Origin: Aureimonas sp. Leaf427
GTDB taxonomy: Bacteria; Pseudomonadota; Alphaproteobacteria; Rhizobiales; Rhizobiaceae
Direction of reading: 5' to 3'
Length of the DNA: 64,000 bases
Assembly: GCF_001425485.1 (NCBI RefSeq)
Contig: NZ_LMQW01000048.1
Span: forward strand, 62,001-126,000
In this document: positions 30,641 to 35,128 of the stretch, in pieces
Position numbering within the stretch: position 1 is the first letter of the stretch
Layout of the letters: each line of letters begins with the position of its first letter
Translations under genes and position numbers: made by a program
Notes under the pieces: model-generated
What the model was told of the DNA's origin: nothing
Seen by the model: the letters and a program-made list of their open reading frames with translations, nothing else
The model's database searches: none

Positions 30641-32601
30641 TGCTGCGCCGGAATCTTGGCGGCCTTGGCCTCGTCCCACCACCAGATCGTCGGCCAGCCA
30701 TCCGAATATTCCGGCAGTTCGGGATGCGAGAACCGGTCCCAGTACGCGACGCGCTCGTCCTTCGGCACGTAGGAGGGGATGATGTACTGGTTGGCCATCA
30801 GAACCCGGTCGAGCGCGCGCGTTGCGGCGACGAGCGTGTCGCGATCCTTGGCCTGGACGACCTGGCGCACCAACTCGTCGATGACGGGGTCCTTGATGCC
30901 GGCATAGTTGCGGGAGGCCGGCTTGTCCGCCGCGTCGGAGCCGAAATAGTCGTATTGCTCGTTGCCGGGCGAAAGCGACTGCGCGAGCCCGCTATAGATC
31001 ACGTCGTAGTCGCGCGCGCGGATGCGGTTGATATATTGCGAGGGATCGACGGCGCGGATGCGCATCTCGACGCCGATGCGCTTCAGGCTCTCCTGATACT
31101 GCGCGACGACGCCCGACAGCGCGTCGCCGTTGAGCAGGATCTCGAAGGAGAGCGGCGTGCCGGTCGCGGTCTCCACCATCTTACCGCCGCGCTGCTCGTA
31201 GCCGGCCTGTTTCAGGAGCTTCACCGCCTCGCGAAGATTGTCGCGGATGCGGGCATTGTCGCCGCCGACCGGGTTCGTCGCGGGGGCGCCGAAGACGCTG
31301 TCGGGCACCTTGCCGCGCAGCGGCTCCAGAATGGCGAGTTCGGCCGGCGAGGGCGTGCCGGTCGCCGCCAGCTCGGTGTTGTAGAACCAGGAATTGGGCC
31401 GCGCATATTCGCCGAAGAACAGCGTTCGCTGCATGGTTTCGAAGTCGAGCGCATAGTTCAGCGCGCGGCGCAGATCGACGTTCTGGAAGAGGGGACGGCG
31501 CAGGTTCGGCACGAAGCCGACCATCAGGCCCGCCGAGCGATAGGAATTCTCGAAGCGCTCCTGCTTCACCGCGCCGCTGCGCACGGCGGGAAAGTCGTAG
31601 CCGGTCGCCCAGCGCGACGCCTTGTTCTCGCTCCAGAAATCGAACTGGTTCGCCTTGAAGGCCTCGAAGGCCACCGTGTCGTCGCGGAAGTAGATGTAGT
31701 CGATGCGGTCGAAATTGTACTGTCCGACATTGATCGGCAGGTCCGCGCCCCACCAGTCCTTGACGCGCTCGTAGGAGACCCCGCGTCCGGTCGAGGACGA
31801 GACGATCCGGTAGGGACCGGAGCCGAGAGGCGCCTCGACGGTGGTCTCGGCGATGTCGCGCTGGCGACCGTTCGCATCCTTGCGCGTCCACCAGTGCTTG
31901 GGCAGGACGATCAGCTGGCCGACGATGTTCGGCAGCTCGCGATTGTTCTTCTCGTCGAAGGTGAAGGTCACTTCGCCGGGGGCCGTCTCCGCCGCGTCGA
32001 CCACATGGCGATAGTAGAAGCCCTGGCTCGCATTGACCTCCTTCAGCGCCTCGAAGCTCCAGATCACGTCCTCGGTCGTGATCGGCTGTCCGTCGTGCCA
32101 GCGCGCCTTGGGGTCGATGCGATAGGTCACGGAGGAGAAGTCGGCGGGAAAGGACACGGCGTCGGCGATGCGGCCGTAGCCGGTCGAGGTCTCGTCCATC
32201 GTCGGCGAGGTCAGCGTCTCGTAGATCAGTCCGAGCCCCTCGGCGGCGTCGCCCTTGGAGGCGATGGGATTGAAGCTGTCGAAACTGCCGATCGCATCCA
32301 GCCGGATGCGCCCGCCCTTCGGCGCGTCGGGATTGACGTAGTCGAGATGCCGGAAGCCCGGCTCGTACTTGAGATCCCCGAGAAGGCTCGTGCCGATGCG
32401 CCAGTCGCGCGTCGCGGCGGCGTCGGGCGTGGCGGGTGCGATCGGGGCGGGCGTCGATGGATCGGCGGCGGCCGGGCTCGCTGGAGCCGCGGCCGGTGCC
32501 GCCGTCGCGGGGGCGGTGGTCTGTGCCTGGGACGGCGCCGGAACGAGCCCCGCGAGCAGAATGGCGAGGCTGGGAACGATGCGGCGCGCGAATGGCGTCA
32601 A
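30637..32601 (-). CDS. Second YejA-like peptide-binding protein, TTG start
   Basis: A family-5 solute-binding protein of 654 residues, first gene of the long leftward unit. The ATG at 32673 has no ribosome site. A TTG at 32601 has GGAGG 6 bases upstream and begins a clean Sec-type signal peptide (residues 1-26, ending PSQAQ), so I choose TTG. An Ala/Pro-rich spacer (about residues 27-65) precedes the binding domain, which shares many blocks with the next gene (TGTPSPAELAILEPLRGKVP). Two binding proteins on one importer imply a wider peptide range. Confidence 0.88.
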   Translation of the reverse strand: MTPFARRIVPSLAILLAGLVPAPSQAQTTAPATAAPAAAPASPAAADPSTPAPIAPATPDAAATRDWRIGTSLLGDLKYEPGFRHLDYVNPDAPKGGRIRLDAIGSFDSFNPIASKGDAAEGLGLIYETLTSPTMDETSTGYGRIADAVSFPADFSSVTYRIDPKARWHDGQPITTEDVIWSFEALKEVNASQGFYYRHVVDAAETAPGEVTFTFDEKNNRELPNIVGQLIVLPKHWWTRKDANGRQRDIAETTVEAPLGSGPYRIVSSSTGRGVSYERVKDWWGADLPINVGQYNFDRIDYIYFRDDTVAFEAFKANQFDFWSENKASRWATGYDFPAVRSGAVKQERFENSYRSAGLMVGFVPNLRRPLFQNVDLRRALNYALDFETMQRTLFFGEYARPNSWFYNTELAATGTPSPAELAILEPLRGKVPDSVFGAPATNPVGGDNARIRDNLREAVKLLKQAGYEQRGGKMVETATGTPLSFEILLNGDALSGVVAQYQESLKRIGVEMRIRAVDPSQYINRIRARDYDVIYSGLAQSLSPGNEQYDYFGSDAADKPASRNYAGIKDPVIDELVRQVVQAKDRDTLVAATRALDRVLMANQYIIPSYVPKDERVAYWDRFSHPELPEYSDGWPTIWWWDEAKAAKIPAQQ

Positions 32602-32815
32602 GGAGGACCTCCGGTGCGATGAGCTCGACGCTCCACGCTTTGGTGCAGACTGTGGCCGTCGTTCGGCACACATAGGATCATGACGAAGTTTTAATCGCCC
32701 CGGCGCCGCTGTCCAACCGTTCCGCAGCGGCGATCGATCACGATCCGGGTGGCATCTCGCGAAGGCGGCCGGATGACGGAGAGCCTGGGCGAAGGCGGAG
32801 GGTGCCCCGAATCGA

Positions 32816-32841
32816 AAGGCCCCGGCTTTCGCCAGGGCCTT
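32816..32841 (-). terminator. Hairpin downstream of the cytochrome gene
   Basis: Read leftward: AAGGCCCTGGC, GAAA tetraloop, GCCGGGGCCTT; 11 bp with one G-U pair, followed by TCG rather than a T-run. It lies 28 bases past the cytochrome stop and before the peptide-importer unit, insulating the two. The rest of the 32602-32869 gap shows nothing else I can name apart from the leader of the importer unit. Confidence 0.7.
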
Positions 32842-32869
32842 CGTCGTCTTAGCGGATCGGTGCGGACCC

Positions 32870-34162
32870 TTACTGCGGGCCGCCGGCGCCGGTCTCGTCG
32901 TAGCTCTTCAGGAAGGCGATGACGTTGGCGATGTCCTCGGGCTTCTTCAGGCCGGGGAAGGCCATCTTGGTGCCGGGCACCTCGCCCTTCGGGTTGGTGA
33001 GCCAAGCCGTCAGAGCCGCGTCGTCCCAGGTCGGGTGCGTGCCGGCATAGGCCTTCAGCGCGGGCGAGAAGGCGTAGCCCTCGACCGAGGCGACCGCCTC
33101 GCCGAAGATGCCGTTCAGCTCGGGGCCGATCTTGTTGGCCGCGTTCGGGCCGACCGCATGGCAGGCCTGGCACTTCTTGAAGACCTGCGCGCCGGCCTTG
33201 GCGTCGCCGGCGCTCGCGACCTGCGTCGCGGCGGGAGCTGCGGCAGGCGCAGGCGTCGCCGCGCCCTGCTGCTGCGGGGCGGCTGCGGGCGCTGCCGGAG
33301 CGGGCGCTGCCGGTGCCGGAGCGGCAGGAGCCGGAGCGGGTGCCGCCGGAGCCGCCGGTGCAGGCGCTGCGGGAGCAGGAGCCGCCGTGGCAGGAGCAGG
33401 AGCAGCGGGAGCAGGAGCCGCCGGAGCAGGTGCAGGTGCAGCCGGAGCGGCCTGGGCCGCCGGAGCCGGCGTGGCCGGGGTGTTGGCGGGCGTCGGGCCG
33501 GAGCCCTGCGTCGGCTCGGCGGCGCCGGCGGCGGGAGCCGCAGGCGCGTCGGCCGGCGCGGTCGCGGCGGGGGCCGCATCGGCGGTGGCGGCTGCGGGCT
33601 CGGCGGCGGCGGTCGGCTCGGGCAGCGGCACCGGGCTGTCGGAGAGCGTGCGCAGATAGGCCAGGAGGTCGGCGCGGCCCTGCGGGTCCTTGATGCCGGC
33701 AAAGCCCATCGCGGTGCCCGCGACATACTGCTTGGGGCCCTTCAGGAAGTGATAGAGGTGGTCGTAGTCCCACTTCGTCTCGCCGCCCTTGGCGAAGTCC
33801 TTCATGCCGGCCGAATAGGAGAAGCCCTCATGCACCGCCACCGGGCGGTTCACGAGATCCCAGAGATCGGGGCCGACCTTGTTCGGTCCGCCCTTCTCGC
33901 CGGAATGGCAGGCCTGGCACTTCTTGAACTCGGTCGCGCCCTTTTCGGCATTGGCCGAGACGAGGAGCGTGGCGACCGGCGGGTCTTCCGCCGCGGCCGG
34001 TGCGCCGCCGGCCGCCGGGGCTTCCGCCGCGACGATCGTGTAGCCGGGCTTTTCCGGCGCCTCGGAGTGAAACAGGCCATCCGCGAGAAGGCTGCCGCCG
34101 AACACGACGAAGATCGTGCCCAGCACGGCTCCGAAGATCTTGTTGGCTTCTAAGGAATCCAT
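32870..34162 (-). CDS. Membrane-anchored two-haem cytochrome c with Ala/Pro linker
   Basis: A 430-residue protein: N-terminal membrane helix (about residues 12-30), class I cytochrome c domain 1 (haem motif CQACH at 82-86, likely axial Met152), an Ala/Pro linker (about 180-316), and domain 2 (CQACH at 331-335, Met400). The start [15 protein letters not shown] matches the family of single-haem membrane cytochromes of rhizobia, so this looks like such a protein with a second domain added. It probably shuttles electrons in the periplasm between the bc1 complex and an oxidase. The ATG at 34162 is chosen on family fit; another at 34183 is possible. Confidence 0.9.
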
Positions 34163-34286
34163 GAAGACGGCGGCTCCCGACATGCCGGCCGCATCGGCGG
34201 CCTCTTACAACGAACGAGCCGCCTTGGCGGCCTCCCAACGATCCTGTATCCGCATCGGAACCTTCGGTCCTTTGCGGATGATCGAC

Positions 34287-34305
34287 AACGCCTATAAGAG
34301 GCGTT
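34287..34305. promoter_or_regulatory. Short palindrome around a TATAAG box
   Basis: AACGCCT-ATAAG-AGGCGTT: perfect 7-base arms around a 5-base loop that overlaps a possible -10 (TATAAG, 34293-34298), in the 225-base gap between the divergent cytochrome and kdsB genes. It is 82 bases before kdsB. A TTGCGG at 34272 gives only a 15-base spacer, so the promoter call is weak. Confidence 0.35.
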
Positions 34306-34387
34306 CTAAACGACCTTTTGACACCTCGAAGCCCGGCGTTCAATCGCCCCCGCAGCTTCTTTCTGCACCAAGGCCCCGATACCTCCG

Positions 34388-35128
34388 ATGTCCGTCCTCA
34401 TCCTCATTCCCGCGCGGCTGGCTTCGACGCGCCTGCCGGGCAAGCCGCTGGCCGATATCGGAGGCCGCCCGATGATCGTGCGCGTCGCCGAACGGGCCGC
34501 CGCATCGGGGCTCGGACGGGTCGTCGTGGCGACCGATACGCCCGAGATCGCGAGGATCGTCGAGGCTCACGGCTTCGAAGGCGTGATGACGAAGCCGACC
34601 CACGAATCGGGCTCCGACCGCATCCACGAGGCGCTTCTCGCCGTCGATCCGGAAGGGCACTGCCGGACGATCGTCAACCTCCAGGGCGATCTGCCGACCA
34701 TCGACCCCGCGATGATCGGACGCGTCCTCGCGCCTCTGGAAAACCCGGACTGCGATATCGCGACGCTGGCCTTCGAGATCACCGAGGCGGCCGAGCGCAC
34801 CAATCCGAACGTCGTGAAGCTCGTGGGGACGCAGATCGCGCCGGGCACCTTGCGCGCGCTCTATTTCACCCGCGCCACCGCGCCCTGGGGGGAGGGGCCG
34901 CTCTTCCACCATGTCGGGCTCTACGCCTATCGGCGCGCCGCGCTGGAGCGCTTCGTCGCGCTGCCGCCCTCGCCGCTGGAGCTTCGCGAGCGGCTGGAGC
35001 AGCTGCGCGCCCTGGAGGCCGGCATGACCATCATGGCCGGCATCGTCGACACCGTTCCGCTCGGCGTCGACACGCCGGAGGATCTCGAGCGCGCGCGGCG
35101 CCATCAGGCCGGGGAGAACAGGACGTGA
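34388..35128 (+). CDS. kdsB: 3-deoxy-manno-octulosonate cytidylyltransferase
   Basis: Activates KDO to CMP-KDO for lipopolysaccharide core synthesis in the cytoplasm. The 246-residue protein has the nucleotide-binding start [40 protein letters not shown], and the QGDLPTIDP metal-binding segment. It overlaps pheA by a GTGA junction, the common alphaproteobacterial arrangement. It is divergent from the cytochrome gene. Confidence 0.96.

Follow-up and report, generated by a model that had tools for sequence, protein, structure and literature searches.

A membrane-anchored two-haem cytochrome c from Aureimonas: a possible tethered pair of electron shuttles assembled from anchored and soluble carriers

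CycM-type carriers (cytochrome cy, c552) ferry electrons between the bc1 complex, their source, and the terminal oxidases. In a 64,000-nucleotide stretch of DNA from Aureimonas sp. Leaf427 (hereafter the window), one such carrier appeared to bear a second haem domain at the end of a long Ala/Pro arm, and we wondered where this second domain came from and what a protein of this shape could do for electron transfer. A preliminary description of the window had pictured the arm as a wire between bc1 and oxidase that reaches far across the periplasm. Our analysis bears out the layout and the domain types given there; the wire is not supported, and the reach across the periplasm was overstated.

Gene, domains and linker

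The cytochrome gene is a single intact open frame, 437 codons long and encoded by the minus strand (Table 1). Since homologues begin with MDS or MNS, the internal ATG is the probable real start. The gene is flanked by neighbours for which we assume the names kdsB-like and yejA-like. A kdsB-like match lies beside the cytochrome gene in all 18 related loci compared and a yejA-like match on its other side in 15 of the 18 (the exceptions being L007, a short locus, L034 and L035); the window gene is in the orthologous position among Rhizobiales CycM genes. A promoter scan of 32600-34450 returned no sigma-70-like promoter, and terminator-like sites in the same interval were at chance level (1 against a mean of 1.4).

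Table 1. Coordinates of the two-haem cytochrome gene, its parts and its divergent neighbour in the window
Feature	Position	Strand	Remarks
Two-haem membrane-anchored cytochrome CDS	32870..34183	-	437 aa; probable start ATG 34162, 430 aa; start from homologues
Single N-terminal transmembrane anchor, residues 14-38	34070..34144	-	Hydropathy peak; AlphaFold2 helix 10-34; 9fks_o alignment
Haem domain D1, CycM/c552/cy type	33635..33955	-	
D1 CxxCH haem-binding motif, residues 89-93	33905..33919	-	
D1 probable distal Met ligand, residue 159, TAMGF	33707..33709	-	Motif position; ligand role by homology
Ala/Pro linker, residues 186-324 (139 aa, 78% A+P)	33212..33628	-	
Haem domain D2, derived from a soluble c550 (CycA-type) carrier	32873..33208	-	
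D2 CxxCH haem-binding motif, residues 338-342	33158..33172	-	
D2 probable distal Met ligand, residue 407, TKMAF	32963..32965	-	Motif position; ligand role by homology
kdsB-like divergent neighbour	34388..35128	+	Context marker, outside the protein

Two stretches of the protein matched PF00034 (class I cytochrome c; 48.9 bits against a curated cut-off of 21.3), and both domains hold a CxxCH motif with a distal Met (89-93/159 and 338-342/407), to which the ligand role is assigned by homology. With one intact frame, two CxxCH motifs and a linker of 139 residues, the two-domain cytochrome with an Ala/Pro linker that had been proposed is real. An AlphaFold2 model built from 14 sequences contained one anchor helix and two helical parts resembling haem domains, with a low-confidence coil between them; the model was weak (mean pLDDT 63.5, pTM 0.38), and residues 211 to 320 were coil with block means of pLDDT of 37-55. 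The linker is predicted to be disordered.

Of the linker residues, 70 are Ala and 39 are Pro, and the longest pure A/P run in the protein is 37. The window has 310 stop-to-stop frames of 100 aa or longer; judged by the richest 100-residue stretch of each, this protein leads by far with 85 A+P, and the runner-up has 57. The DNA had been called internally repetitive: repeats are present, but they are only imperfect, the best-scoring array having a period of 36, 4.2 copies and 76% matches. When linker lengths were measured by one fixed definition, 19 two-haem members of the family (the G039, G140 and tri-haem proteins excluded) had linkers of 101-172 residues (median 134), with 34-83% A+P and a net charge of -5 to -30. 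Near-pure Ala/Pro linkers (79-83% by the same definition) occurred only in the three members of the window's genus. In 23 proteins of other families the linkers spanned 29-214 residues (median 99) and ranged from Met-rich (L202) to Lys-rich (L206). Linker length therefore varies among relatives, and the homologues are not the uniform two-domain proteins with a constant linker that the preliminary description had set against its own proposal. We infer that the linker was kept for its length and disorder, and that its sequence matters little.

Treated as a worm-like chain with assumed persistence lengths of 0.4-1.0 nm, a linker of 140 residues has a contour length of about 50 nm and a root-mean-square end-to-end distance of only about 6-10 nm, which falls short of a far reach across the periplasm; for the 69-residue linker of cy the corresponding distance is 4-7 nm.

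Some linkers had features of their own. The inter-haem linker of L202 (G394 C130), a two-haem CycM-type protein, consists of GMSGM-type repeats rich in Met, which recall copper-binding stretches, and that of L206 (G357 C84) is strongly Lys-rich with a net charge of +12; the other measured linkers are all acidic apart from a single neutral one. A loosely conserved block, PxTTT...QAPxxTDT, noticed by eye, lies in the first half of the otherwise variable linkers of L017, L022, L031, L154, L156 and L157 and recurs in the single-haem tails of L019-L021 and L048; it is degenerate in the window protein.

Origin and distribution of the second haem domain

The solved membrane cytochrome 9fks_o aligns with residues 8-178 of the window protein, a span that takes in the anchor (E 1.6e-22), and the D1 haem domain aligns with the c-552 of 3m97; we take both structures to be of Paracoccus origin. 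D1 groups with the single-haem CycM-type proteins of its family (support 99/95). The N-terminal half, described beforehand as a one-haem membrane cytochrome, can accordingly be assigned to the CycM/c552/cy type on the alignment with 9fks_o, which extends over the anchor.

For D2, the best solved relative was 8ed4, a c552 (E 1.4e-38), presumably the arsenite oxidase partner of strain NT-26. The domain lies inside the clade of the group's soluble c550s (support 100/100, branch 0.52). Its best NCBI family was CycA NF043008, a Bradyrhizobium model, at 108.5 bits and so below the curated cut-off of 240; the soluble c550 of the window genome itself scored 102.4 bits against the same cut-off. This separate soluble c550 (G000 contig C5, L002) is 84% identical to D2 over 99 residues, and its neighbourhood is common to relatives, with flanking matches in at least L009, L010, L011, L119 and L127. 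The second class I domain noticed earlier is thus class I and of the c550 type, and its placement in the trees traces D2 to the soluble c550 (CycA-type) carrier that this bacterial group itself possesses. Nei-Gojobori pN/pS values in five species pairs were 0.19-0.44 for D1 and 0.12-0.57 for D2, and both haem domains are under purifying selection in the pairs tested; for the linker the ratio is unreliable because its alignment is.

On an alignment of 46 rows and 108 columns, a topology that unites all 22 D2s was rejected (AU p 0.0104), as was one that unites the 21 soluble c550s (AU p 0.0128); in an earlier tree of 21 rows, which included the D2 fragment of G004, holding eight D2s together gave an AU p of 0.009. 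On these alignments, neither the D2s nor the soluble c550s form a clade apart from the other kind (AU p about 0.01). Within the soluble clade, the D2s of G039 and G140 were neighbours of G208's soluble c550 (100/96), in a tree that has no rows for the soluble c550s of G039 and G140 themselves. The window D2 paired with its own soluble c550 in three trees (94/90, 90/92 and 87/83); the corner of the 46-row tree that contains this pair is poorly supported. By identity, D2 was nearer to the soluble c550 of its own genome than to any other D2 in two of 22 cases (the window and G140) and was not in the other 20, which suggests that exchange or recapture happened sometimes and not everywhere. Since the two kinds of domain are intermixed and at times closest within one genome, as if sequence had been exchanged, shared partners are plausible. 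At the nucleotide level the window D2 shares 79% identity with the soluble c550 gene of its own genome and 82% with the D2 of G005; these identities do not settle the matter of exchange, for which the signal comes from the protein trees and protein identities, and repeated independent capture would give the same pattern.

To see how widespread the fusion is in the window's family, 297 family genomes were searched with D2 at E <= 1e-36. Matches were obtained in 25 genomes; in 17 of these, from 8 genera, the match lay within a frame that starts with the CycM anchor, and in the remaining eight the listed match was a soluble c550 or another protein. The fusions of G039 and G140, two of these eight genomes, surfaced only when 11 genomes were searched again at 1e-8, so 17 is a lower bound. 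Together with these two, one protein from G001, and those of Aurantimonas marina and A. marianensis (both assigned to the group by name), the set came to 22 multi-haem proteins, and all 22 genomes also encode a soluble c550. In genus g21 and G044 the soluble c550 seemed lost under the strict cut-off; a looser one revealed it in both, and the loss was dismissed. One 542-aa frame (L155, G138 C49) has three haems, in the order CycM domain, linker of 51 residues, c550 domain, linker of 89 residues, c550 domain; its second and third haem domains are nearly identical, and on that resemblance they stem from a recent duplication. L121, L136, L137 and L163 hold a different fusion: a soluble c550-type domain, apparently with a signal peptide of its own, then a linker, then a second, seemingly SoxD-like haem domain.

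Four relatives, Aureimonas leprariae, Aureimonas endophytica, Aureimonas psammosilenae and Aurantimonas sp. CSK15Z-1, have one haem and a tail but no D2, which makes D2 dispensable. Both D2 and the soluble c550 were absent from G002, G003 and the named genomes of Aureimonas leprariae and Aureimonas psammosilenae; in G002 and G003, whose D1 regions are identical to those of the two named species, the D2 query retrieved only CycM at E <= 1e-8. As both are relatives of the window, this identity probably puts the window with an Aureimonas-like member of the Aurantimonadaceae. The genome of Aurantimonas sp. CSK15Z-1 also lacks D2 and has the soluble c550. Its gene (L048) terminates in an ordinary stop, and a frameshifted second domain was rejected for the single-haem relatives, as tblastn with D2 retrieved only D1 (L005, L006, L019-L021 and L048). 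The window's genus, as assigned by the classification tool, includes one-haem and two-haem forms. The D1 gene tree required two state changes, with a broken fragment from G004 scored as one-haem. As this tree is poorly resolved, gain followed by loss and later gain come out alike for the Aureimonas species; CSK15Z-1 adjoins the two-haem Mangrovicella (96/86), which looks like a loss of D2. The tail probably preceded the second domain, because Ala/Pro/Lys/Glu tails are present on Mesorhizobium CycM proteins that have a single haem. Across L023-L096 (L031 and L048 excepted, L034 unreadable in the frame used) we found single-haem CycM proteins of Mesorhizobium, Rhizobium and others, whose C-terminal tails, measured from a fixed cut, range in length from 3 to 94 residues, frequently contain KPAEGAAP-like repeats and lack a second domain.

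An assembly artefact is unlikely as a general cause of these fusions. Collapse or expansion of the assembly had been named beforehand as a possible refutation, and intact frames with this layout occur in many assemblies, including those of one and two contigs (G216 and G005). In G004, D1 and D2 lie at the edges of different contigs (C28 and C19; L007 and L008), so that the repetitive linker probably broke the assembly. This genome was left out of the counts of intact fusions; its D2 fragment entered two trees and its D1 fragment the D1 tree.

When the D1 haem core was used to search 199 genomes of the order, at least 193 gave a match, counted among the stronger matches listed. We read 65 loci from 62 genomes, of which 30 were the best matches and 35 were chosen mostly for long frames. 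Two haem domains in one frame were present at 24 of the 65 loci, namely the window and 23 from ten other families (f5, f14, f18, f28, f29, f30, f31, f34, f48 and f49); with a choice that favours long frames, this count is a lower bound and no rate. One of the frames, L212, has neither start nor anchor as read. The domain search that the preliminary description had suggested thus found the fusion elsewhere, in the window's own family and beyond it. All 23 second domains of the other families lay outside the 100/100 c550 clade and among CycM-type domains, and H1 and H2 paired by family with starred support in f48, f5, f34 and f31 and twice in f18, on an order-wide tree with a weak backbone (42/80 at the middle) and few columns. 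The second domain of these families looks like a CycM copy; either internal duplication happened repeatedly, or a single old one was followed by homogenisation. The window family's D2 is of the c550 type and the others are CycM-like, which indicates that the architecture was reached by at least two routes. Given diverse linker compositions and at least two origins of the second domain, what is shared is the layout, not the linker sequence, and the fact that related bacteria built the same layout in other ways suggests that a two-unit design is useful.

A tethered pair of shuttles and competing explanations

Electrons do not tunnel along a disordered chain of 139 residues, and the haems at its two ends exchange electrons only when their domains collide. 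The suggestion that the linker is a wire from bc1 to oxidase is unsupported; for the Thermus two-domain c550, excerpts of PMC3561395 report independent domains in rapid equilibrium that act as a shuttle and not as a wire. Cytochrome cy carries electrons between bc1 and oxidase by a tethered haem domain, and its 69-residue linker is needed at full length for rapid reaction-centre transfer, about 45 residues being enough for respiration (excerpts of PMC7876108). These two precedents point to a tethered pair of shuttles in the window protein as well, that is, an anchored CycM-type carrier joined to a second carrier domain from a soluble c550 on a disordered arm. We give this reading an even chance (a probability of roughly 0.5); we infer the function, and likewise the functional partners, from homology.

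If the protein works as such a pair, both D1 and D2 would be loaded with haem in the periplasm, and each would collide independently with c1, the oxidase or other c550 partners. The linker would serve as an entropic tether that keeps D2 within roughly 6-10 nm of D1, and electrons would pass between D1 and D2 by collision and not along it. Under the assumption that bc1 and aa3 are present in the window genome, the pair would shuttle locally, storing two electrons per anchor and giving a high carrier concentration beside bc1 and oxidase, and the molecule would bridge the c550 pool and the membrane-bound route. Several observations sit less well with tethered shuttles: close relatives live without D2, D2 is not closest to its own soluble c550 in 20 of 22 genomes, D2 scores below the CycA cut-off, the cbb3 oxidase is missing from 5 of 19 multi-haem genomes, and the structure model is weak. 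On a wider scale, and more tentatively, with the odds somewhat against it, the two classical bc1-to-oxidase carriers of alphaproteobacteria, anchored and soluble, may have been merged, D2 exchanged with the free carrier in some lineages, and the design reached repeatedly as a recurring adaptive solution for electron transfer between complexes III and IV.

Other explanations, not fully exclusive of one another, give the second haem a different role. D1 might remain on the oxidase route and D2 reach a different periplasmic or outer-membrane enzyme, as with the c5 and CcoP of Neisseria. According to excerpts of PMC2924362, an AlaSerPro-rich region of 34 or 42 residues precedes an additional haem domain in c5 and tri-haem CcoP, and NirK-dependent growth is not the same in strains that have one or the other CcoP form. 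The joint absence of D2 and soluble c550 in Aureimonas leprariae and Aureimonas psammosilenae, as if a common partner had gone, is in keeping with such a branch, but Aurantimonas sp. CSK15Z-1 is without D2 and yet keeps the soluble c550. NirK had to be rejected as a general partner: there was no match to TIGR02376 in the window genome, and in a set of 22 genomes (19 multi-haem and three single-haem) it exceeded the cut-off only in G001, G005 and G216 (3/22, or 3/19 of the multi-haem genomes), with some match at E <= 0.001 in 12, nine of these having it only far below the cut-off. Since the window genome has no match, a role restricted to NirK after the Neisseria precedent does not fit. We regard a branching function in general as rather unlikely. 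As to the oxidase, CcoN (TIGR00780) exceeded the cut-off in 14 of the 22 genomes, including that of the window (14/19 multi-haem and 0/3 single-haem; Fisher p 0.036). Because the genomes are not independent, nothing is drawn from this p value, and the absence of CcoN from 5 of the 19 multi-haem genomes means that the cbb3 oxidase is not tied to the layout. D2 might instead be a periplasmic collector of electrons from dehydrogenases (sulfite, thiosulfate or arsenite type), handing them on to D1 at the oxidase when the two domains collide. Its best solved relative is a c552, and on thiosulfate CycA delivers electrons to the aa3 oxidase; the arsenite oxidase of NT-26 reduces its native c552 (excerpts of PMC5574378), and the Thermus dihaem c550 accepts electrons from a sulfite oxidoreductase (PMC3561395, in the part available). 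We nevertheless consider a collector unlikely; the genome has a soluble c550, which by itself could fill this role.

Two further explanations remain. The linker could be cut after export to release D2 as an extra soluble c550, and long unfolded Ala/Pro stretches are indeed exposed to proteases; in the alignment, D2 also starts about where the mature soluble c550 starts, the cleavage site of the latter being a predicted one. What makes this very improbable is that the linker has no signal-like hydrophobic core (its best 15-residue mean hydropathy is 0.67, against 2.22 in the anchor) and that a soluble c550 is already encoded in 22/22 genomes. Alternatively, slippage may have extended an existing Ala/Pro tail of CycM on which a c550 copy then landed, the extra haem bringing no real advantage. 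Such a nearly neutral history would agree with the variable Ala/Pro(/Lys/Glu) tails, without a second haem, on single-haem CycM proteins of Mesorhizobium and Aureimonas, with the lack of D2 in four relatives and with the imperfect DNA repeats. It is distinctly unlikely in the face of a D2 that retains its CxxCH and Met under purifying selection like that on D1 in five species pairs, of its presence in 8 genera in the search at E <= 1e-36, and of similar layouts elsewhere with another domain.

Relation to known carriers

Laboratories engineer fusions such as bc1-CcoP-cy (excerpts of PMC7876108) to find out whether the carriers on which electrons cross between complexes III and IV are free, membrane-bound or tethered. 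The natural fusions described here, with measured linkers of 29 to 214 residues, second domains of at least two origins and single-haem relatives as controls, offer a ready series for testing how far the rate depends on the length of the tether and on which carrier it holds.

Like CycM of Bradyrhizobium, c552 of Paracoccus and cy of Rhodobacter, the window protein has a class I haem domain behind an N-terminal anchor. Those carriers have one haem, whereas the window protein has two CxxCH domains in its intact frame. The long linker of cy, missing from its solved structure (PMC7876108, as far as available), lies between anchor and haem; in the window protein a further linker and a second haem domain come after the first. 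D2 is of the same type as soluble c550 (CycA) and the c552 of NT-26, and falls in one clade with the group's own soluble c550s, but unlike these it is attached to a membrane protein and has no signal peptide of its own.

An extra c-type haem domain on a low-complexity linker is also found in Neisseria c5 (CycB) and tri-haem CcoP, the CcoP domain having been acquired through a fusion and later removed by truncation in N. meningitidis. Their AlaSerPro-rich linkers of 34 and 42 residues belong to other carriers, against 139 residues with 78% Ala+Pro in the window protein, and these systems are tied to nitrite reduction by NirK (excerpts of PMC2924362 for all of these Neisseria data), to which the window genome has no match. 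The dihaem c550 of Thermus thermophilus and the cytochromes c4 resemble the window protein in having two independent haem domains on a flexible linker. In the Thermus protein the two domains resemble different cytochromes, a proline-rich linker covers residues 91-106, and two-electron storage has been proposed (excerpts of PMC3561395). Thermus c550 is periplasmic and c4 periplasmic or membrane-bound, and their linkers have only about 10-16 residues. Each part of the window protein is therefore known, and Neisseria c5/CcoP, in the excerpts of PMC2924362, is a clear precedent for a haem domain behind an Ala-rich linker. In the titles and abstract openings of open-licence PMC literature, no protein of this fusion type is named. 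As far as that literature tells, what is new here is the union of an anchored and a soluble carrier in one chain, the apparent exchange with the soluble partner and the recurrence of the layout across the order.
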